A DNA stretch of 64,000 nucleotides from Blastocatellia bacterium (lineage in GTDB: Bacteria; Acidobacteriota; Blastocatellia; Pyrinomonadales; Pyrinomonadaceae): contig PMSM01000006.1 in assembly GCA_003168335.1 (NCBI GenBank), forward strand, positions 634,320 to 698,319, written 5' to 3'. The position numbers were made by a program, and so were the translations under genes. Below, piece by piece: positions 2,724 through 38,642 of this stretch. The notes beneath the pieces were generated by a model that saw only the letters and a program-made list of their open reading frames with translations, did no database searches and was not told the origin of the DNA. Position 1 is the first letter of the stretch. Each line of letters begins with the position of its first letter.

Positions 2724-3740
2724 CTAGTGACCCAGGAAGCGCTCGGCGTCAATGGCCGCCATGCAGCCGGTGCCCGCCGCGGTCACTGCCTGGCGATAGA
2801 CTGAATCCTGCACGTCGCCGCAGGCAAAAACGCCGGGGATGTTTGTGCCGGTTGAGTGACCGCTGGTGAGTATGTAACCAACCGGATCCATTTCGATCTG
2901 ACCCTTGAATAGATCCGTATTGGGTTTGTGGCCGATGGCCACAAAGACTCCATCACAGTTCAAAACGGATTCCGCGCCAGTCTCTACGTTCCGTAGATCC
3001 ACGCCGGTTACTCCCTGCTCCAGTGTGCCGATAATCGCAGCAACGTCGGTATTCCAGATGAACTCGATCTTGTCGTTGCGAAACGCCTTCTCCTGCATGA
3101 TTTTTGAAGCGCGCAGCTTGTCGCGGCGATGAATCACGAAAACTCGTTTGGCATAACGCGTGAGGAATGTCGCTTCTTCCATCGCAGTGTCTCCACCACC
3201 AATAACGGCCAGGTGTTTGTTGCGAAAGGCCGGCAGCGGTCCGTCGCAGGTGGCGCAGGCGGAAACTCCGTTGCCTCCGAAACCAATTGGCGTTTTGGCC
3301 TCGCCGGGAATGCCCAGCCACTTCGCTGATGCGCCTGAAGCGATTATCAACGTTTCGGCTTTTATTATTTTTTCGTCGGTATGCAGTGTGAACGGCCGCT
3401 CTTGCAGATCGACTTTCGTAATCCATTCTTCCAGAAATTCAGTCCCGAATCGCTCGGCTTGTTTGCGAAACTCGACCATCAAGTCCGGACCCTGAATGCC
3501 CTCAGAAAAACCTGGATAATTTTCGACATCAGTAGTGATCATCAACTGACCACCGGGTGTGGTCTGTTTCTCGGTATCTGCCGGCGCGTCGACGAGTAAT
3601 GGAGCGAGATTCGCTCGCCCGCTGTAAATTCCGGCAGTTAGTCCGGCCGGTCCTGAACCGATGATCACGACCTGACGGCGAAGTTCTTCTTTGGCCAAGC
3701 TGGGTTGGTCTCCTTCCGACCCGGTTTCGGGAAGTCTCAA
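2724..3740 (-). CDS. trxB: Thioredoxin reductase (NADPH)
   Basis: This is a low-molecular-weight, FAD-dependent thioredoxin reductase that passes electrons from NADPH to thioredoxin in the cytoplasm. The FAD-binding GSGPAG lies at residues 28-33, the redox-active CATC at 162-165, and the NADPH-binding GGGDTAMEEA at 181-190 with the HRRDKLRA specificity motif after it. The C-terminal GVFACGDVQD and QAVTAAGTGCMAA blocks complete the FAD domain. At 338 residues it carries about 20 extra N-terminal residues compared with typical family members, so the true start may lie nearer the GSGPAG motif. The gene runs convergently towards the SH3 gene and divergently from the hydroxyacyl-CoA dehydrogenase gene at 3832. 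Confidence 0.95.
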   Translation of the reverse strand: MRLPETGSEGDQPSLAKEELRRQVVIIGSGPAGLTAGIYSGRANLAPLLVDAPADTEKQTTPGGQLMITTDVENYPGFSEGIQGPDLMVEFRKQAERFGTEFLEEWITKVDLQERPFTLHTDEKIIKAETLIIASGASAKWLGIPGEAKTPIGFGGNGVSACATCDGPLPAFRNKHLAVIGGGDTAMEEATFLTRYAKRVFVIHRRDKLRASKIMQEKAFRNDKIEFIWNTDVAAIIGTLEQGVTGVDLRNVETGAESVLNCDGVFVAIGHKPNTDLFKGQIEMDPVGYILTSGHSTGTNIPGVFACGDVQDSVYRQAVTAAGTGCMAAIDAERFLGH

Positions 3741-7635: not shown

Positions 7636-7738
7636 TGAGGTCAGTACCGGGAGCGGTAGCGACCGGGTCTCATTCTCACGACCTCGGGCTATTTGGAGTG
7701 TTAATACCCGGTCTCTACCGCTCCCGGTACTGACCTCA
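7636..7738. repeat. Pair of inverted REP-like units (BIME-like)
   Basis: Unit 1 at 7636-7668 and unit 2 at 7706-7738 are near-perfect reverse complements of each other. Each unit folds on itself: GGTC-AG-TACCG-GGAG-CGGTA-GC-GACC has an outer 4-bp stem, an internal loop and an inner 5-bp stem. This is the architecture of REP sequences, and two inverted units around a short linker form a BIME. The pair sits in the gap upstream of the quinone oxidoreductase gene and downstream of transketolase. A third unit lies inside the transketolase gene at about 8210-8240. Confidence 0.85.
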
Positions 7739-7860: not shown

Positions 7861-9906
7861 CTATAACAACGCCCGCGCCTGAATCAGCACATTCTCAACA
7901 TTGAACCCCAAATTCTTCATCGCTACCTCACCCGGCGCGGAAGCCCCGAAGCGATCGAGACAGATCACATCGCCCTTAAATCCGACCCATCGATCCCAGC
8001 CTTGCCGCACGCCGGCTTCGATCGCCAGACGCGCAGTGATCGACGGTGGCAGCACTTCATCGCGGTAGTCCTGTGATTGCTCTTCGAATAGTTCAGTGCA
8101 GGGCAGAGAGACGACGCGCGTGGGCACGCCATCTTTCTGCAATTCGTCGCGAGCGTCGAGGGCGAGTGAAACTTCTGAGCCGGTGGCGATCAAGATTAGC
8201 TGCGGAGTGACCCGGTCGCTACCGCTCCCGGTACTGACCGCGTCCGCGAGTACGTAGCCGCCGCGACGCAAACCTTCAGCGGGCGCGCAAACCTGGCGAT
8301 CGATTAGCGGCACTTTCTGTCGGGTCAATGCCAGGGCTGTCGGCGCATGCCGGCGCAGAATCGCCAGTCGCCACGCTTCGCGCACTTCATGCACGTCCGC
8401 CGGTCGAATCACAAACAGATGCGGGATCGCACGCAGCGCCGCGAGATGCTCGACCGGCTGATGCGTGGGGCCATCTTCGCCAAGCCCGATTGAGTCGTGC
8501 GTGAAAACATAGATGACCTGCACTTCCGATAGACATGCCAGCCTGATCGATGGCCGCATGTAATCTGAAAAGCACATGAACGTGCCGCCAAAAGGAATCA
8601 GCCCGCCGTTGAGCGCCATGCCGGTCATCGTCGCGCCCATCGCATGTTCGCGCACGCCAAAATGAAGAATGCGTCCATCGTAACTGCTCGGTTCAAAGCT
8701 GCCGCCGTCTTTGATGTCCGTGTTGTTCGACGGGCCCAGATCGGCCGACCCGCCAATCAGCATCGGCAGGTGTGGCGCCAGCGCATTGATCACCTGGCCG
8801 CTGGCCACGCGCGTCGCCATCGCTTCAGCGTTTTCAAAAGTCGGCAGATGCTTTTCCCAGTCCGCCGGCAATTCACCGCTTACGGTCTGTTGCCACAGAG
8901 CGCCAGGGTCCGAGTGTTTCTCTTGATACTTCGTGACCAGTTCTTTCCATTCACGTTCGAACTCTGCGCCGCGGTCGATCGCTTTTCGAAAATGCACCAG
9001 CGCTTCATCGGGCACGTAGAATTGCTTATCTTCGGGCCAGCCCAGATGTCGCTTGGTCTCGCGTACCGCTTCTTCGCCCGGCGGGTCACTGTGCGCCTTG
9101 CGCGTGCCCGCGGTCGGCATGCCGTAACCAATAATTGTCTTGACCGAAATTAATGATGGGCGATCGCCAACGGACTGGGCATCGCGAATTGCAGCTTCGA
9201 TAGCCGCGAGATCGTTTCCGTCTGCGACGGTCGAAGTGTGCCAGCCATAGGATTCAAATCTCTTCGTCATATCTTCGTTGAAAGCCAGGTCGGTAAAGCC
9301 TTCGATCGTGACATGATTGTCGTCGTAGAGATAAATGAGCTTGCCGAGTTTCAAATGGCCGGCGAGTGACGCCGCTTCCGCCGCCACGCCTTCCATCAAA
9401 TCGCCATCGGACACGATCGCATAGACGTAATGATCGATGAGCGAGAAGTCCTGCTCGTTAAATTTTGCGGCGAGGTGCGCTGCGCCCATCGCCATGCCGA
9501 CACCGTTGGCAAAGCCCTGGCCGAGCGGGCCGGTCGTAGTCTCGACGCCCGGCGTCAACCCGTATTCCGGGTGGCCCGGGGTCTTTGAGCCCCATTGGCG
9601 AAAGTTTTCGATATCATCCAGCGCCAAATCATAACCAGTTAGATAGAGCAGAGAGTAAAGCAGCATGCAGCCGTGGCCCGCCGAGAGCAGAAAGCGGTCG
9701 CGGTTTTCCCACTTTGGATTCCGTGGGTTATAGCGCATGAACTTTGTCCACAACACGTAGGCCATCGGCGCCGCGCCCAGAGGCAAACCGGGGTGGCCCG
9801 ACTTGGCTTTTTGCACCGCGTCAATCGTCAGCGTGCGGATGGTGTTAATGCAAAGTTGATCGAGTTCCGGAGTGGCTTCAGTTTCTTTCTGCATTCTGGC
9901 GCTCAT
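7861..9906 (-). CDS. tkt: Transketolase
   Basis: It is a thiamine-diphosphate enzyme of the non-oxidative pentose phosphate pathway that moves two-carbon units between sugar phosphates. The N-terminal domain has [16 protein letters not shown] and GHGCMLLY. The ThDP-binding segment is seen in [19 protein letters not shown] with the distal Asn in [22 protein letters not shown] and [16 protein letters not shown] are the pyrimidine-domain signatures. Length, 681 residues, is slightly above usual. The excess includes [10 protein letters not shown] near residues 556-566, encoded by a REP-like repeat. That stretch lies just before [10 protein letters not shown], at the entry to the C-terminal domain, a surface location in known structures. 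The FGGY kinase gene lies 158 bases upstream on the same strand. Confidence 0.97.
8210..8240. repeat. REP-like unit inside the transketolase coding sequence
   Basis: This stretch matches unit 2 of the intergenic pair at 7706-7738 over about 30 bases with very few differences (CCGGT, then TACCGCTCCCGGTACTGACC). On the minus strand it keeps the transketolase frame and encodes [10 protein letters not shown]. The same palindrome, GGTC-AG-TACCG with its complement, is intact. Confidence 0.85.
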
Positions 9907-12561: not shown

Positions 12562-12648
12562 GTCGCGAACCTCAGACGTCGTTAAGTCCGGGAGATATCA
12601 CAAATGAATGAATTGGGATTTGAGCTCGCGAAGCGGGCGGAATATTAA

Positions 12649-12817
12649 TAGCCCACAGCGCGAGCTCTGGGTTAGCGAGCCACGTCAGAGTTGAGCCCGC
12701 GAACGCAGGCGGCATATTCGTTGCGGGAAATGTCGCCAGCCGCCATTTCGTTATGTCGCCCCTACAGGACTTGGACATCATTCTTGCTTCTTTACCCATA
12801 GCTTGCGCTGTGGGCTA
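12649..12817. repeat. Two-hairpin inverted element with TAGCCCACAGCGC arms
   Basis: The left part (about 12649-12675) reads TAGCCCACAGCGCGAGCTC then TGGGTTA. The right part (about 12792-12817) reads TACCCATAGCTTGCG then CTGTGGGCTA. Each part folds into its own hairpin and each is the reverse complement of the other, with about 115 bases between. Together with smaller palindromes around it, this fills the roughly 440-base gap between the zinc-ribbon gene and the DUF1990 gene. I see no reading frame in the gap with coding character. Confidence 0.7.
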
Positions 12818-13004
12818 CTGATATATCGTCGGCTTCGGCGACTTGTTGTCGCTGGCTTTTTTTAACCACCACATCCGCGGGCAAATTGGGCAATCAGCGA
12901 GTGCCTTGACCCGGTTACGGCTGCCGGTTCTATATCACCATGTTGTTGCAAAGTTGGCGCACCCCGTCAACTCTGCCGTTCGATCCGCACACTTCGAAAA
13001 TCCA

Positions 13005-28085: not shown

Positions 28086-28895
28086 TCAATGCAGGGTGCC
28101 AAAACCGCTAGTGTAGGTTCCGACTTGCGTACAAGGGCAGCCAGTCCCAGTCCCTGACACTTGAGTTCCGTTCTGCGTCACGTTGGCGTACCAGGACGTG
28201 TTGGCCGGCCCGAGGACCCAGACATTAAACAGCGGGCCGGCGCCGGGACTGACCACCGAAAACGCGGTCCCATTGAAAGTGATGGATCCGTAGGCTACGG
28301 TAAGAAGCGCCGTAGCTACACTAGCGGGGTTACTCTGGTCCGCGCCCGCACCACTAACGCTTGCCCCAACGGTATTACCCGTGATTATGCAATTATAGAG
28401 ATCCGCCTTTGAATTTACGAGGCTGATTCCGGTAGCCAACTGCGTGAACTTACAGTCGTGAACCTCCAGCTTGCCGCTGTTGTGCTGAACGCCAGTGGTG
28501 CCCGCAGCATTTGCCCCGTTGAAGTTTATGTTGCGCAAGACTACCAGATCGGTCGCGCCGGCGCTGATGGTAAAGCCAGCCGTGCCCGTCGCCGCGACGA
28601 CGAAAGCCGTCGCGCCAGGAACCGCCGCGATCGTGATCGCCTTATTGATGGTAAGCGGGCCGTACCCGGCTGTGTCGAGCACAATCAGTTCGCCCCCGGC
28701 AGTAACCGCACCAATCGCCACCGCGAACGTCTTGCAGGGAGTGGCTTGAACGCAATTTGCGCCAATGTTGCCATCGCTGCCGGTGCTCGAGACAAACGCC
28801 CGCAGCACAGTCGCCTGCGCTGCCGCCGCAAAAGTCATAATCAACAGAGACACTGCCAGAGTGGTCAGGGTCCATTTCATCTTCTTCATCTTCAT
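28086..28895 (-). CDS. Secreted beta-helix protein, array member A1
   Basis: The protein has a Lys/Met-rich start (MKMKKMKW), a hydrophobic signal sequence and cleavage near AAAAQA. A conserved N-terminal domain follows (TVLRAFVSSTGSD, then GANCVQATPCKTFAVAIGAV with two Cys that could pair). Residues 60-200 carry short repeats with regularly spaced Asn and hydrophobic residues (LRNINFNGANAA, KLEVHDCKF, ADLYNCIITGN), the mark of a right-handed parallel beta-helix. The C-terminal 80 residues differ from those of its neighbours. It is probably an extracellular structural or carbohydrate-binding protein. No catalytic residues of pectate lyases are recognisable. A GGAG box precedes the ATG. Confidence 0.85.
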   Translation of the reverse strand: MKMKKMKWTLTTLAVSLLIMTFAAAAQATVLRAFVSSTGSDGNIGANCVQATPCKTFAVAIGAVTAGGELIVLDTAGYGPLTINKAITIAAVPGATAFVVAATGTAGFTISAGATDLVVLRNINFNGANAAGTTGVQHNSGKLEVHDCKFTQLATGISLVNSKADLYNCIITGNTVGASVSGAGADQSNPASVATALLTVAYGSITFNGTAFSVVSPGAGPLFNVWVLGPANTSWYANVTQNGTQVSGTGTGCPCTQVGTYTSGFGTLH

Positions 28896-28977
28896 TTCTC
28901 CTTAAAAAATCTAGAGTCGCGCAGGCACTTTGTGCCGGCGCCGAGTTCGCGGTCAGACTAACGGCTAGAGGGAAAGC

Positions 28978-29007
28978 ATATTAATCGCAGGACCCATGAC
29001 CCGTCAA
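28978..29007 (-). promoter_or_regulatory. Conserved promoter upstream of beta-helix gene A1
   Basis: Read on the minus strand, TTGACG is followed after 18 bases by TAATAT. The same pair and spacing recur upstream of A2 and A3, inside an otherwise only partly conserved block, which supports a functional sigma-70 type promoter. About 80 bases of leader separate it from the ATG. Confidence 0.65.
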
Positions 29008-29044
29008 CGTAATGAACCGGGCGCGAGAAACAATGCGCAACTCT

Positions 29045-29075
29045 CTGCCGGCCGCTCCACTTCAGGAAGCGGCCG
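29045..29075 (-). terminator. Hairpin downstream of beta-helix gene A2
   Basis: GCCGGCCGCT and AGCGGCCGGC form a perfect 10-bp stem with an 11-base loop, about 50 bases past the A2 stop codon. There is no good T-run, so it may be a stabilising hairpin rather than an intrinsic terminator. A degenerate copy lies at about 31175-31217, upstream of A3. Confidence 0.5.
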
Positions 29076-29122
29076 GCAAACAGAAGATCGGAAGGGCCAG
29101 ATCTTGATTCCCGAGCGTCCGC

Positions 29123-29923
29123 CTATCTTACGTTCTGGAGGTTGTTGAAAAATCCTACCTGAGCACAAGGGCAGCCTGCTCCGCTCCCGTTGAAAAGAGT
29201 GGTGTTACCCACCACGCTGGTGGTCATACCGTTATTTGGCGCTTGAACGTAGATATTAAAGACCGGGTTCGTGCCGGGATTGATGATCACAAATACAGTG
29301 CCATTGAATGTGATGCTGCCGCCACTAATTGTAAGAAGCGCTGCCGCCGCCGGACCGCCCTGGGTGTCGGTGCCTGTCCCACTGACGCTGACTGCATTGG
29401 TATTTCCCGTTAGTATGCAGTTATAGAGGTCCGCCTTGGAATTTACCAGGGTGATTCCGGTAGTCAACTGCGAGAACTTACAGTCGTAGACCTCCAGCTT
29501 GCCACTGTTGTGCTGAACGCCGGTGGTGCTCGCAGCATTTGCCCCGTTGAAGTTTATGTTGCGCAAGACGACCAGGTCGGTCGCGCCGGCGCCGATGGTG
29601 AAGCCAGCCGTGCCCGTCGCGGCAACGACGAAAGCCGTCGCGCCAGGAACCGCCGCGATCGTGATCGCCTTATTGACGACAAGCGGACCGTACCCGCTCG
29701 TGTCGAGCACGATCAACTCGCCACCCGCAGTAACCGCACCAATTGCCACCGCGAACGTCTTGCAGGGAGTGGCCTGAACGCAATTTGCGCCAATGTTGCC
29801 ATCGCTGCCGGTGCTCGAGACAAACGCCCGCAGCACAGTCGCCTGCGCTGCCGCCGCAAAAGTCATAATCAACAGAGACACTGCCAGAGTGGTCAGGGTC
29901 CATTTCATCTTCTTCATCTTCAT
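29123..29923 (-). CDS. Secreted beta-helix protein, array member A2
   Basis: The first 125 residues are almost identical to A1, including the MKMKKMKW start, the signal peptide and the paired Cys motif NCVQATPCKTFAVA. Similarity remains strong through KADLYNCILTGN and then falls sharply; the last 85 residues are A2-specific apart from a CPCAQVG motif shared with A1 (CPCTQVG). The beta-helix repeat pattern is the same. It has its own promoter (30000-30029) and ribosome binding site. The pattern of constant front and variable end suggests a common export and folding module with divergent surfaces. Confidence 0.85.
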   Translation of the reverse strand: MKMKKMKWTLTTLAVSLLIMTFAAAAQATVLRAFVSSTGSDGNIGANCVQATPCKTFAVAIGAVTAGGELIVLDTSGYGPLVVNKAITIAAVPGATAFVVAATGTAGFTIGAGATDLVVLRNINFNGANAASTTGVQHNSGKLEVYDCKFSQLTTGITLVNSKADLYNCILTGNTNAVSVSGTGTDTQGGPAAAALLTISGGSITFNGTVFVIINPGTNPVFNIYVQAPNNGMTTSVVGNTTLFNGSGAGCPCAQVGFFNNLQNVR

Positions 29924-29999
29924 TTCTCCTTAAAAGAATTTAGAGTCGCGCACGTGCCGGCTCGGAGTTCGCGGTCATGCTAACGGCTAGAGGGAAAGC

Positions 30000-30029
30000 A
30001 TATTAATCACAGGAGGCATCGCTCGTCAA
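30000..30029 (-). promoter_or_regulatory. Conserved promoter upstream of beta-helix gene A2
   Basis: On the minus strand TTGACG, 18 bases, TAATAT, as for A1. The spacer sequence differs in about half its positions while the two hexamers are unchanged. Confidence 0.62.
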
Positions 30030-30141
30030 TTTAATAGATCAGATGGGTGAGCTCAGTTAGTAGGAGCACTACCCTTCAGACTAATAATGGATCGAAGAAG
30101 AATTTGCGAAAATTACCTGGAGGGCACAATCCTAAAGGGAG

Positions 30142-30179
30142 GCTCCGCCGTCCGCCCCAGGAAGAGCGAGCGACGGAGC
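30142..30179 (-). terminator. Hairpin downstream of beta-helix gene A3
   Basis: GCTCCGCCG pairs with CGACGGAGC (one G-U pair) about 35-70 bases past the A3 stop. On the minus strand it is followed by TCCCTTTAGG, a weak T-run. A similar hairpin is found in the equivalent place after A4, within a duplicated stretch of about 150 bases. Confidence 0.5.
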
Positions 30180-30213
30180 AGACCCAAACAACTCAAACTG
30201 CGAACGGACCGGT

Positions 30214-31029
30214 CTAATGCAGTCCGGTGCTCATTGTGTAGATCCCTGGGGCTGCCAGACAAGTGCCCGTGACGAAAGTACAAGTAGAATTAGACGTATT
30301 CCCCGCGAGGTTAAGGGTAGCGCCCCCAGTGGAGAAGACGAAGATATTGAAAAGGGGATTCATGTTTCCGTTAACGCCAGGATTATTCTGCTGGGTCCCT
30401 ATGGTATTGAAGGTGATGTTCCCTCTATTGATGCGCACCTGCGCTACTGCCACTGTGGCATCTGGCAGAGTGCCTTGACCAGTGGAATTCACTCCCGTAC
30501 CACAGCCGTGTATATCGCAATCAATGAGGTCCATTTTCGCGACGCAATCCACGCCAATAGTCAATTGCTGAAAGGTGCAGTTTTCGACAATTAGCAGGCC
30601 CGAGTTATGCCTAAGTCCGGTGGTGTTCGCGGCATTTGCCCCATTGAAGTTAATATTGCGCAGCTTAACCATGTCGGTGGGACCGGCGCTGATGGAGAAG
30701 CCGATACTGCCCGTCGCCGCGACCACGAAAGCCGTCGCGCCAGGAACCGCAGCGATCGTGATCGCCTTATTGAGATTAAGCGGGCCGTAGCCGGCTGTGT
30801 CGAGCGCGATCAATTCGCCCCCGGGAGTAACCGCACCAATCGCCACCGCGAACGTCTTGCACGGAGTGGCTTGAACGCAATTCGCGCCAAGGTTGCTATC
30901 ACTGCCGGTGCTTGAAACAAACGCCCGCAACACAGTCGCCTGGGTTGCCACGGCGGAAACCATAATCAACAGAGTTGCCGTCAGGGCAATCTGTGTACAT
31001 TTCATCTTCTTCATCTTCTTCATCTTCAA
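30214..31029 (-). CDS. Secreted beta-helix protein, array member A3
   Basis: It starts MKMKKMKKMKC and has a signal sequence distinct from A1, A2 and A4 (ALTATLLIMVSAVATQA), but keeps TVLRAFVSSTGSD and NCVQATPCKTFAVAIGAV. From MVKLRNINFNGANAA onward it is almost identical to A4 and different from A1 and A2 (HNSGLLIVENCTFQQLTIGV, MDLIDCDIHGCGTGV). The beta-helix pattern with Cys-containing turns is evident. It has its own promoter at 31107-31136. A noncoding block 3' of this gene (about 30084-30240) is repeated 3' of A4 (about 31270-31440). Confidence 0.85.
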   Translation of the reverse strand: MKMKKMKKMKCTQIALTATLLIMVSAVATQATVLRAFVSSTGSDSNLGANCVQATPCKTFAVAIGAVTPGGELIALDTAGYGPLNLNKAITIAAVPGATAFVVAATGSIGFSISAGPTDMVKLRNINFNGANAANTTGLRHNSGLLIVENCTFQQLTIGVDCVAKMDLIDCDIHGCGTGVNSTGQGTLPDATVAVAQVRINRGNITFNTIGTQQNNPGVNGNMNPLFNIFVFSTGGATLNLAGNTSNSTCTFVTGTCLAAPGIYTMSTGLH

Positions 31030-31106
31030 TTCTCCTATAGAAAAATTTAGAGTGGCGCAGCACTTTGTGCCGGCACCGCGGTCAGACTAACGGCTAGAGG
31101 GAGAGC

Positions 31107-31136
31107 ATACTAATTGCAGGACCCACGACCCGTCAA
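31107..31136 (-). promoter_or_regulatory. Conserved promoter upstream of beta-helix gene A3
   Basis: On the minus strand TTGACG, 18 bases, TAGTAT. It lies in the roughly 375-base gap between A3 and A4, which otherwise holds the leader of A3, a degenerate GCCGGC hairpin and the 3' hairpin of A4. Confidence 0.6.
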
Positions 31137-31331
31137 CATAATGAACCAGGCGCGAGAACAAGGCACAACTCTCTGCCGGCCGCCCGTGTAGAGCGGCCGA
31201 CATGAAGCAGCCGGCAGAAAAGCCCAGGAGATGAAAGACAGTAGTGCTCCGTTAGTGGGGGCACTTGAGACTAATAATGGATCGAAGAAGAATTTGCCAA
31301 AACTACCTGGAGGGCACGATCCTAAAGGGAA

Positions 31332-31368
31332 GCTCCGCCGGCCGCTCAGAAAAAGCGGGCGACGGAGC
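31332..31368 (-). terminator. Hairpin downstream of beta-helix gene A4
   Basis: GCTCCGCCG and CGACGGAGC frame an AT-containing loop with a further CCGCTC/AGCGGG inner pairing. It is the counterpart of the hairpin at 30142-30179 in the duplicated 3' block. Confidence 0.5.
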
Positions 31369-31403
31369 ACAGACCCAAACAACTCAAACTGCGAACGACC
31401 GGT

Positions 31404-32198
31404 CTAATGCAGTCCGGAGCTCATTGTGTAGATCCCTGGTCCTGCCTGACAATTCGAGCCCGTGCAAGCAGAAGCAGTTGTATTCCCCGCGAGGTTAAGG
31501 GTAGCGCCCCCAGTGGAGAAGACGAAGATATTGAAAAGGGGATTCATGTTTCCGTTAAGGCCGGCATTATTCTGCTGGGTCCCCACGTTATTGAAGGTGA
31601 TGTTCCCTCTATTGACGCGCACCTGCGCTACCGCCACTGTGGCATCTGGTAGAGTGCCTTGACCAGTGGATTGAACTCCCGTGCCGCAGCCGTGTATGTC
31701 GCAATCAATGAGGTCCATTTTTGCGACGCAATCCACGCCAATAGTCAATTGCTGAAAGGTGCAGTTTTCGACAATTAGCAGGCCTGAGTTATGCCTAAGT
31801 CCGGTGGTGCCCGCAGCATTTGCCCCATTGAAGTTAATATTGCGCAGCTTAACCATGTCAGTCGCGCCGGCGCTAACGGCGAAGCCGATAGTGCCCGTCG
31901 CCGCGACCACGAAAGCCGTCACGCCAGGAACCGCAGCGATCGTGATCGCCTTATTGATGACAAGCGGGCCGTACCCGGCTGTGTCGAGCACAATCAGTTC
32001 GCCCCCGGGAGTAACCGCGCCAATCGCCACTGCGAACGTCTTGCAGGGAGTGGCTTGAACGCAATTTGCGCCAATGTTGCCATCGCTGCCGGTGCTCGAG
32101 ACAAACGCCCGCAGCACAGTCGCCTGCGCTGCCGCCGCAAAAGTCATAATCAACAGTGACACTGCCAGAGTGATCACTGTCCATTTCATCTTCTTCAT
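31404..32198 (-). CDS. Secreted beta-helix protein, array member A4 (mosaic)
   Basis: The ATG at 32198 has a GGAG box seven bases upstream and gives the MKKMKW start shared by the array; the frame is open 19 codons further but that part is not conserved. The signal peptide and first domain (LAVSLLIMTFAAAAQA, SSTGSDGNIGANC) match A1 and A2. From about residue 100 (MVKLRNINFNGANAAG) to the end it matches A3 instead. A4 is therefore a recombinant of the two types, or A3 is. Unlike A1-A3 it lacks the conserved TTGACG promoter block: upstream similarity ends within about 15 bases of the ribosome binding site. Confidence 0.85.
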   Translation of the reverse strand: MKKMKWTVITLAVSLLIMTFAAAAQATVLRAFVSSTGSDGNIGANCVQATPCKTFAVAIGAVTPGGELIVLDTAGYGPLVINKAITIAAVPGVTAFVVAATGTIGFAVSAGATDMVKLRNINFNGANAAGTTGLRHNSGLLIVENCTFQQLTIGVDCVAKMDLIDCDIHGCGTGVQSTGQGTLPDATVAVAQVRVNRGNITFNNVGTQQNNAGLNGNMNPLFNIFVFSTGGATLNLAGNTTASACTGSNCQAGPGIYTMSSGLH

Positions 32199-32641
32199 CT
32201 TCAATTCTCCTTTGAATGGATTTCGGGCTGAACCTGATCCGTCGGAATCAAGCAAAAAGTGTTCGCTGGATGGCGTACTCTACACCAGGTTGGCAGGTAA
32301 ATGCCAAGCTCACACGCCTCGTTTCTCAACTTCGTGTCTTTCACGCCCGTCGCGGTCAGCGTGTCTCTCCGCTCGTGTTAGCCAGCAGGCCTCTGCATAC
32401 GCGATGGTTCAGCGCCATTTCGTATGCACTCTGGCGAAGCCTGCTCGGGCAAATGGGCAAGGGGTCTGTTGACGTTTGGGTTTTCGACGATCAGATCAAT
32501 CGCTGATCCGAAACGAGTCCGTTACGAACTTCAAACCGAGGGCTTCCGGCACCGAGACTTCTTCTGCCCTATCCTCGACGGTGGAATCGAGGTGTCTGGC
32601 CGGAATGTATGCGTCTTTTGCTACTTTGGTATAATGCCCCG
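32199..32641. other. 443-base gap between beta-helix A4 and the sulfotransferase-like gene
   Basis: No coding frame with family similarity is visible on either strand. A TATAAT hexamer at about 32630-32635 stands only six bases before the ATG at 32642, and no clear -35 box is seen at the usual distance. If it is a promoter, the transcript would start at or next to the ATG and be leaderless. The rest has no recognisable repeat. Confidence 0.45.
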
Positions 32642-36177: not shown

Positions 36178-36207
36178 GTCGCCGGACCCTTCAAGAACAA
36201 AAAACCA

Positions 36208-36251
36208 CCCCTGCCGCCTACTCGTTGATGTGACGAGATGGCCGGCAGGGG
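36208..36251 (-). terminator. Intrinsic terminator of beta-helix gene B1
   Basis: CCCCTGCC and GGCAGGGG form the outer stem, CTCGT and ACGAG an inner stem. On the minus strand a run of six T follows the hairpin. It lies about 30 bases past the B1 stop codon. Confidence 0.8.
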
Positions 36252-36282
36252 CAAATTTCTAACTAACCGGTTTCCTTTGGGT

Positions 36283-37236
36283 CTACTCGGTCTGACCTGT
36301 GCCCGTGCTCGGGAACGCGACTCCTCCGGTTTGGTTGTTTCCGTACGAGGACACCAGTCCGCCGCCCGTGGCGACCGCCAGTCCCGCGTTATTCGCCTGA
36401 TTATTCAGCGCCGTGGTGTTCGAGACGCGGATGATCGAGCTGGCTGTGGTCGCCGAGAAACCAACGACGTTGTTCGACACCAGGCAGTGGTCACAATTGA
36501 CATCCGTCGTGCCGCCCGCGGTCTGTTGCGCGGAGATGCCGGCGGTGGTGTTCTGGCTGAACACTGAGTTATAGATGGTGGCCCTCACGTTGCTCCCGGC
36601 AAAAAACCCGGTCGCGTTCTTCTGCATGCGTGAGTTGTTTATGTGCACGTTGATTTGAGTCGCGCCACTGCTGGGATTGACGCTGATGGCGCTCCCGGTG
36701 CAGTTCTGAATCGTCGTGTTGTTGATTTCCAGTTGGCCGCCGCCGGCGCGGCTGTCGTCAATCCCGTTCCCGGGCGCTCCGTTCTGACCCGAAATGAAGC
36801 AATTTTCGACGAAGACGGTGGTGGCAGCGATTATGTTAACACCTCTGAGTCCGGTGCCCGCGCCTTGAATGGAGAGCCCACGCAAGGTCACTGCTTTGCG
36901 CACATCGGCGGGATCGGTAATGTTGATGGTGACACCGTTAGTTACCGAGTTAAGGATGCTGCCCAGACCTGTCATGCTGCCTTCGAGAGTGATTGACTTG
37001 ACGATGGTCACGGCGCCGAATCCACCTGGATCGAGACAGTCGATCTCGCCGTCCTTGGCCGTCTTTGAGATGGCGCCGGCAAAGGTCTTGCAGGGCGCGG
37101 TGCGGCTGCACGGATTGACGTCGTCGCCAACGCCGGATACCCAGGTGCGCGTTGCCTGTGCCTGGGCCAGCGACGCAAAGCCAAGGGTGAAAACTAGAAC
37201 TACTAATGCGTTAATAGTGAACCGAAACTTGTTCAT
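36283..37236 (-). CDS. Secreted beta-helix protein B1
   Basis: The 317-residue protein starts MNKFRFTINALVVLVFTLGF with cleavage near AQAQA. The next segment, RTWVSGVGDDVNPCSRTAPC followed by KTFAGAISKTAKDGEIDCLD, carries Cys that may pair. Residues 60-300 show the hydrophobic/Asn ladder of a right-handed parallel beta-helix (ITLEGS, RGLSIQGAGTG, VFVENCFISGQNGAPGNG, INNTTIQNCTGSA, VHINNSRMQKNATGFF, TIYNSVFSQNTTAG). It is about 93 percent identical by eye to B2 and only generally similar to the A family. It is probably an extracellular passive structural or glycan-binding protein. Confidence 0.86.
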   Translation of the reverse strand: MNKFRFTINALVVLVFTLGFASLAQAQATRTWVSGVGDDVNPCSRTAPCKTFAGAISKTAKDGEIDCLDPGGFGAVTIVKSITLEGSMTGLGSILNSVTNGVTINITDPADVRKAVTLRGLSIQGAGTGLRGVNIIAATTVFVENCFISGQNGAPGNGIDDSRAGGGQLEINNTTIQNCTGSAISVNPSSGATQINVHINNSRMQKNATGFFAGSNVRATIYNSVFSQNTTAGISAQQTAGGTTDVNCDHCLVSNNVVGFSATTASSIIRVSNTTALNNQANNAGLAVATGGGLVSSYGNNQTGGVAFPSTGTGQTE

Positions 37237-37483
37237 TTGGAGTCTCCTTCTTCTGCTCTAAGTGATAAGTTAACGGGATGGCCACCAGTAGAACACGGAT
37301 CCGTTCCGCCCACTGTTTGCGCTCAATTCCCTTATTTCCTGAGGGCCGCACTTTGTAAGACCGACCCTGGTTCTCTCTTGAACGCTGGCATAATAGCACA
37401 GGACATCCAGCGTCATCTGGAACGCTGAAGCGTGTCCTCCCCGGGCGGGGCGGTCTACCTCCGCTCCGAATGACGAAAAAAGC

Positions 37484-37526
37484 CCCTGCCGACCTACTCG
37501 CGAAAATGACGAGATGATCGGCAGGG
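37484..37526 (-). terminator. Intrinsic terminator of beta-helix gene B2
   Basis: CCCTGCCGA and TCGGCAGGG form a 9-bp stem with an inner CTCG/CGAG pairing; on the minus strand a T-run follows. It is a homologue of the terminator at 36208-36251, with compensating changes at the base of the stem, and lies inside the 323-base gap between B1 and B2 together with the leader of B1. Confidence 0.8.
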
Positions 37527-37558
37527 ACAAATTTCTAACTAACCGGTTTCCTTTGGGT

Positions 37559-38512
37559 CTACTCGGTCTGACCTGTGCCCGTGCTCGGGAACGCGACTCC
37601 TCCGGTTTGGTTGTTTCCGTACGAAGAGACGAGTCCGCCGCCCGTGGCGACCGCCAGTCCCGTGTTATTCGCCAGATTATTCAGCGCCGTGGTGTTCGAG
37701 ACGCGGATGATTGCGCCGGCTGTGGTCGCCTGGAAGCCAGCGACGTTGTTCGACACCAGGCAGTGGTCACAATTGACATCCGTCGTGCCGCCCGCCGTCT
37801 GTTGCGCGGAGATTCCGGCGGTGGTGTTCTGGCTGAACACTGAGTTATAGATGGTGGCCCTCACGTTGCTCCCGGCAAAAAACCCGGTCGCGTTCTTCTG
37901 CATGCGTGAGTTGTTTATGTGCACGTTGATTTGCGTGCTGCCACTGCTGGGATTGACGTTGAGGGCGTTCCCGGTGCAGTTCTGAATCGTCGTGTTGTTG
38001 ATTTCCAGTTGGCCGCCGCCGGCGCGGCTGTCGTCAATCCCGTTCCCGGGTGCCCCGTTCTGACCCGAAATGAAGCAATTTTCGACGAAGACGGTGGTGG
38101 CAGCGGTGATGCTAACACCTCTGACTCCGGTGCCCGCGCCTTGAATGGAGAGCCCACGCAAGGTCACTGCTTTGCGAACATCGGCGGGATCGGTAATGTT
38201 GACATTGATACCGTTGGTTGCCGAGTTAAGGATGCTGCCCAGACCTGTCATGCTGCCTTCGAGAGTGATTGACTTGACGATGGTCACGGCGCCGAAGCCA
38301 CCCGGATCGAGACAGTCGATCTCGCCGTCCTTGGCCGTCTTTGAGATGGCGCCGGCAAAGGTCTTGCAGGGCGCGGTGCGGCTGCACGGATTAACGTCGT
38401 CGCCGACACCGGACACCCAGGTGCGGGGCGCTTGCGCCTGAGCTATGGAAGCAAAGGCGAACGTGAAGATCGCGATTGCCAGGATGTTGATAGTGAGCCG
38501 AAACTTGTTCAT
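37559..38512 (-). CDS. Secreted beta-helix protein B2
   Basis: From the ATG at 38512 the protein is 317 residues, identical in length to B1, and starts MNKFRLTINILAIAIFTFAF. The two proteins differ at roughly 20 positions, mostly in the signal peptide and in a few exposed turns (for example EINNTTIQNCTGNALNVNPS). The reading frame is open 62 codons upstream, but that part is the untranslated leader, whose homologue is also present before B1. A GGAG box stands upstream of the ATG. The block GGCCACCAGTAGAACACGGA, at 38545-38584 here and at 37278-37317 before B1, marks the duplicated promoter region. Confidence 0.86.
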   Translation of the reverse strand: MNKFRLTINILAIAIFTFAFASIAQAQAPRTWVSGVGDDVNPCSRTAPCKTFAGAISKTAKDGEIDCLDPGGFGAVTIVKSITLEGSMTGLGSILNSATNGINVNITDPADVRKAVTLRGLSIQGAGTGVRGVSITAATTVFVENCFISGQNGAPGNGIDDSRAGGGQLEINNTTIQNCTGNALNVNPSSGSTQINVHINNSRMQKNATGFFAGSNVRATIYNSVFSQNTTAGISAQQTAGGTTDVNCDHCLVSNNVAGFQATTAGAIIRVSNTTALNNLANNTGLAVATGGGLVSSYGNNQTGGVAFPSTGTGQTE

Positions 38513-38642
38513 TTGGAGTCTCCTTTTTTTCCTTTGAAGTTGGGGTGGCCACCAGTAGAACACGGATCCGTTCCGGCCACTGTTGCGCCGAGTCTTCCCA
38601 TTGTTGCCGAAAAAAGCGTTTTCATCAAACCGCTTGAAAAAA

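Follow-up and report, generated by a model that had tools for sequence, protein, structure and literature searches.

The window, by which we mean the whole 64,000-nucleotide stretch of genome G000 that was analysed, contains a transketolase gene and, in the gap between it and an oxidoreductase-like gene, two inverted copies of a 30-base imperfect palindrome that together form an intergenic REPIN (Table 1). A further single copy lies in frame within the transketolase gene, where it supplies the codons GTC AGT ACC GGG AGC GGT AGC GAC CGG GTC, and the ten residues that it encodes directly precede a 13-residue stretch of the protein. An earlier note on this DNA had described a palindrome within the gene that repeats an intergenic unit and encodes ten in-frame residues just ahead of a conserved block, and both observations hold in the intact reading frame, with the copy in the gene matching the left intergenic arm at 30/30 bases and the right arm at 29/30. 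The range that the note gave for the element (8205–8245) proved slightly wide, and the intergenic unit that it placed at 7706–7738 is present but does not stand alone, since the second, inverted unit makes it part of a hairpin doublet, which as single-stranded DNA folds at -43.4 kcal/mol (z -11.9).

Table 1. Positions of the features described in the text; positions without a contig or locus name are those of the window.
Feature	Position	Strand	Remarks
Left arm of intergenic REPIN (REP family A)	7639–7668	+	Inverted repeat I1
Right arm of intergenic REPIN (REP family A, one base different)	7706–7735	-	Inverted repeat I1
Transketolase gene	7861–9906	-	Intact ORF, 681 aa; TIGR00232, PF00456, PF02779, PF22613
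Single REP element (family A), GGTCAGTACCGGGAGCGGTAGCGACCGGGT	8210–8239	-	In frame within transketolase gene; ten codons 8209–8238
Exact 20-mer GGTCAGTACCGGGAGCGGTA	7639–7658	+	
Exact 20-mer GGTCAGTACCGGGAGCGGTA	7716–7735	-	
Exact 20-mer GGTCAGTACCGGGAGCGGTA	8220–8239	-	
Inverted pair I2	12629–12837		44-nt arms, 121 nt between
Direct repeats	28338–32222 and 36197–38584		About 1.0–1.3 kb apart, 80–93% identical over long stretches
RAYT-like (Y1/HUH) ORF	G000 C1:30783–31259		Flanked by inverted pair of family A REP
Contig starts or ends inside a REP copy	G000 C3:6, C7:6, C10:6, C12:286976		
Complete REP doublet read through MutS2	G005 C23:1600301 (L375)		One short and one long arm
Tandem repeat of AAAGTCC (7 bases) in transketolase loop	L037 (G014) 3142–3243		Related genus

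The exact 20-mer shared by these copies is found at three sites in the window, and shuffled sequences give an expectation of zero. Gly/Ser-rich loops are common in proteins, and one might resemble the repeat by coincidence, or the match might arise from an assembly artefact; we give this reading practically no credence, as it is refuted by the DNA identity to the two intergenic copies, by the shuffles and by the occupation of the same site in independently assembled genomes.

Further matches to the transketolase protein in G000 are weak (about 26–32% identical), so that the cell apparently has just this one transketolase gene, the only full one found in G000 as judged by sequence. A pseudogene or a second transketolase is ruled out by the intact frame and by the low identity of these other matches. 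The named relatives of the gene come from MAGs with the labels Acidobacteria gp4, Blastocatellia and Pyrinomonadaceae, and we assign the window to this lineage accordingly.

In the Pfam assignment, the pyrimidine domain ends at residue 533, and the REP site falls between this point and most of the C-terminal domain. A predicted model of the protein (mean pLDDT 85.9, lower near the insert) places the REP peptide in a coil between strands 551–554 and 570–574, in agreement with a surface loop, and the tolerated surface loop put forward in the earlier note is consistent with this prediction. The REP peptide adds a Gly/Ser-rich loop that is probably harmless to the enzyme.

The repeat family and its candidate transposase

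In the G000 assembly (5.16 Mb, 14 contigs), the REP core occurs in 98 copies at ≤3 mismatches while the reversed control pattern gives 0, and chance similarity is ruled out by this control together with the shuffles. A pattern built on the right half of the unit adds a sister family starting with TACAGAACC. As single-stranded DNA, one REP unit folds at -7.4 kcal/mol into two stems of 4 and 5 pairs with a GGAG loop. When 85 copies were compared for their spacing, 22 '+ -' doublets of 92–97 bp were found, and other close arrangements numbered 0. The copies are mostly extragenic, with 11/135 in G000 lying confidently inside genes as called by our own codon score. REP copies are present in 36 of the 60 related genomes searched, at 82 to 210 per other member of the genus, while G020 and G011 have many copies of a sister variant, GCCTGCGG; a search of a plasmid collection returned no match. 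Contigs C3, C7, C10 and C12 of G000 each start or finish inside a REP copy, indicating that the repeat probably broke the assembly. Also, the window holds a second inverted pair, I2, which looks like another REPIN-like family.

A RAYT-like gene of the Y1/HUH type, itself flanked by an inverted pair of family A REPs, is present in G000. Its score against Pfam Y1_Tnp is 21.9 bits, just under the cut-off of 23, and its assignment therefore leans on the score, the motif and the flanking repeats together. The frame of this copy is disrupted near its end, before the conserved C-terminal helix, so present-day mobility in G000 is unproven. The equivalent in the congener G001 is an intact 170-aa ORF that contains an NHAH motif and is bordered by that genome's own GATAG variant of family A, and G020 carries an intact 169-aa RAYT-like ORF flanked by doublets of its GCCTGCGG variant; at several other loci, a RAYT-like gene is similarly paired with its own REP variant. 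To judge from these sequences, a RAYT-like enzyme would most likely be what spreads the REPs.

With its short palindrome, high copy number, inverted doublets of fixed spacing, mostly extragenic location and palindrome-flanked RAYT-like gene, the family is a REP/REPIN family. REPINs and their recognition by RAYTs (TnpA-REP) through GTAG have been described (PMC3116915; NAR 2021, PMC8266576). Cleavage of the single-stranded element by the RAYT at a CT or CA dinucleotide is characteristic of GTAG-type REPs, and in P. fluorescens SBW25 just 14 of the commonest 16-mers (1,067 occurrences) overlap genes (Bertels and Rainey 2011, PMC3116915). The repeats reported here resemble those systems in all of these features, including the hairpin formed by the doublets, but differ in two respects. 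The nearly invariant GTAG is located 3' of the predicted stem, with a weaker ATGAG in the 5' flank, and no clear unpaired GTAG 5' of the stem, the usual position of the tag, was found in the G000 family; additionally, a visible minority of copies lies in frame within core genes.

In-frame copies in other genes

Eleven sites in G000, transketolase included, are confidently in frame, a confident site being defined as one where an ORF runs across the copy and shows codon bias on either side of it (our own coding score, uncurated). The remaining genes encode AlaS, an AlaX-like protein, MutS2, a CO-dehydrogenase-type FAD subunit, a VWA protein, a GH57 protein, an NtrY-like kinase, a DUF1385 protein, GcvPB and one hypothetical protein. 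The proposal of the earlier note that this REP family can enter genes while keeping the frame is thus supported by ten other genes, and the genome-wide search that it suggested returned about a hundred other copies in G000, among which are these ten. In the congener G005, the same uncurated score gives about 14 in-frame sites, including AddB- and MetH-like proteins as well as a complete doublet read in frame through MutS2.

When orthologues are aligned, relatives show gaps or other REP-like inserts at these loops, except that the surroundings of the DUF1385, VWA and NtrY-like loops are too variable for a clean gap. A clean empty site with a target duplication was sought for the AlaX-like gene, where the insert exceeds one REP and no footprint was readable. 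In the AlaS ORF (L072), at about residues 296–330, a family A REP in the antisense frame occurs together with a second repeat-like peptide, GVPPVNHAQDARAT, and AlaS relatives carry PPATAGG-type peptides at the same loop that resemble the sister REP read in antisense.

We compared the reading frames used at 21 sites, namely those not shared between G000 and G005, pooled and counted by hand. Twelve use the Gly/Ser frame seen in transketolase, seven read SVPGAVATG, two read PVATAPGTD in antisense and none uses the fourth open frame. Under equal chance, 19/21 sites in sense frames has a p of about 0.0002 and 0/21 in one open frame a p of about 0.002, in counts that include a few borderline G005 sites, use thresholds of our own choice and do not separate insertion bias from selection. 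Selection against damaging frames may account for this bias.

In-frame REPs are already known from other bacteria. Di Nocera et al. 2013 (PMC3733652) reported them in genes of several species, repair genes included, with recB of two Xanthomonas carrying a REP at about the same site. Like those intragenic GTAG/CGTC REPs, the copies described here sit in frame, singly or as dimers, in known proteins that are unrelated to one another; here, however, the phylum and the sequence are different, and one site can be followed through six species and its age examined at the DNA level. Rickettsia palindromic elements, which the earlier note had cited as the established precedent, are described as about 150 bp long and in frame in conserved proteins (Ogata et al. 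2000, 2002, as cited in PMC10969869). This precedent is valid but not the sole one, given the in-frame REPs of PMC3733652. The two groups are alike in being palindromes that are apparently tolerated in conserved proteins, and the copies studied here are likewise absent from orthologues without the element; by the size and host described for the Rickettsia elements, they differ from the present unit, which measures 30 bp, or about 95 bp in doublet form, and has a RAYT-like gene associated with it. Searches of the open-access literature turned up no description of such in-frame REPs from Acidobacteriota, and the present family is a further case of phenomena already known. In-frame palindromes extend beyond Rickettsia and the catalogued species to core enzymes of one lineage of soil acidobacteria, with a probable transposase beside its own palindrome.

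The transketolase insert across the genus

In transketolases of relatives beyond the genus, the residues at the REP site are few or unrelated, and the alignment check proposed in the earlier note came out as anticipated, with distant transketolases, solved structures included, lacking these residues at the insertion point. The solved structures 8cip and 3hyl align with a 7-residue gap at the REP peptide, although part of this length difference is not attributable to the REP, because the length of the linker varies over the family even without REPs; the same variability indicates that the site tolerates insertions. In a related genus (G014), the same loop holds a 7-base tandem repeat. Compared to the outgroups, the sequence is an insertion, as the earlier note claimed, but it is not private to G000, being common to the whole genus at the same site: a REP-derived insert was found in 6/6 species in which the gene is assembled (G000, G001, G003, G004, G005 and G006). 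It is nearly intact in G001 and G004, is of a longer REP type and contains a nested stretch in G005, and is degenerate in G003 and G006. The right junction of the insert is identical in G000, G001, G004 and G005. The incomplete G002 genome yielded no such transketolase.

We hold with high confidence that the insert is a REP/REPIN unit, a miniature non-autonomous mobile DNA, likely spread by a RAYT, that landed in a tolerant loop of transketolase. A cognate RAYT (REP-associated tyrosine, Y1/HUH) transposase would spread the units, one of which would have entered the coding sequence at the loop between the pyrimidine-binding and C-terminal domains. Such an insert could have survived because 30 bases preserve the frame, the frame used is free of stops, the peptide is small, polar and Gly/Ser-rich, and the loop tolerates changes in length; the peptide would be neutral for the enzyme.

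The inserts are more alike than the gene around them. At four-fold sites, the transketolase gene of G000 is 0.44–0.56 identical to those of its congeners, whereas the inserts match the G000 copy at 25–29/30 bases (omitting the nested stretch of G005); at third codon positions, 9–10/10 match in the insert against a gene mean of 4.9–5.8. Neutral decay of one old insertion is therefore no explanation. Third codon positions account for just 2/13 of the differences from the G000 copy, and since the differences are mostly nonsynonymous, a peptide-level account of the conservation is ruled out. Retention of the insert in six species and the preference for the Gly/Ser frame across genes might suggest that the peptide is adaptive, for instance as a flexible linker that tunes transketolase, but its residues differ among species, the outgroups manage without it and unrelated proteins carry the same peptide, which makes an adaptive role highly improbable. 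The similarity of the inserts instead points to renewal, by reinsertion or conversion, or to constraint at the level of DNA.

Renewal would mean that the loop has been repeatedly occupied, each species' copy having been replaced or re-inserted after the split, via RAYT or gene conversion, which refines rather than competes with insertion of a RAYT-spread REP. The occupation of all six species by inserts far more alike than the synonymous sites would fit, as would the longer REP type at the site in G005 and the adjoining intergenic REPIN, whose position is not conserved among species. Further, the GATAG variant makes up 41/90 copies in G001 and 7/66 in G000, and the transketolase copy of G001 carries GATAG; these frequencies and this copy favour renewal. 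Caution is advised by the common right junction, which fits one ancestral insertion, and by the consensus of a species' own genome being strictly nearest to its transketolase copy in just 3/5 testable species, the consensus strings having been read by eye off partial lists; moreover, the signal is limited to 30 bases per species. Taken together, we regard renewal as a serious but tentative reading, with a chance slightly short of even.

A single ancestral insertion held similar by the constraint of a DNA or RNA hairpin, not of the peptide, would account for a site common to all six species and for differences that so rarely fall at third codon positions, as these argue against peptide-level selection. 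The degenerate copies of G003 and G006 and the nested stretch in the G005 unit speak against such a constraint, and we consider it unlikely, though appreciably less so than an adaptive peptide.

Extending the renewal of RAYT-spread REPs to the genus, certain loops of essential proteins could be docking sites that are refilled repeatedly by each genome's current REP variant, an idea that we advance tentatively, placing it just below the balance point. If true, a transposase-driven repeat would keep supplying core enzymes with linker sequence. With its differing copy types, the six-species transketolase site makes the choice between one old insertion and renewal a testable one.

Elsewhere in the window, two regions of long direct repeats (Table 1) probably represent a tandemly repeated gene family.
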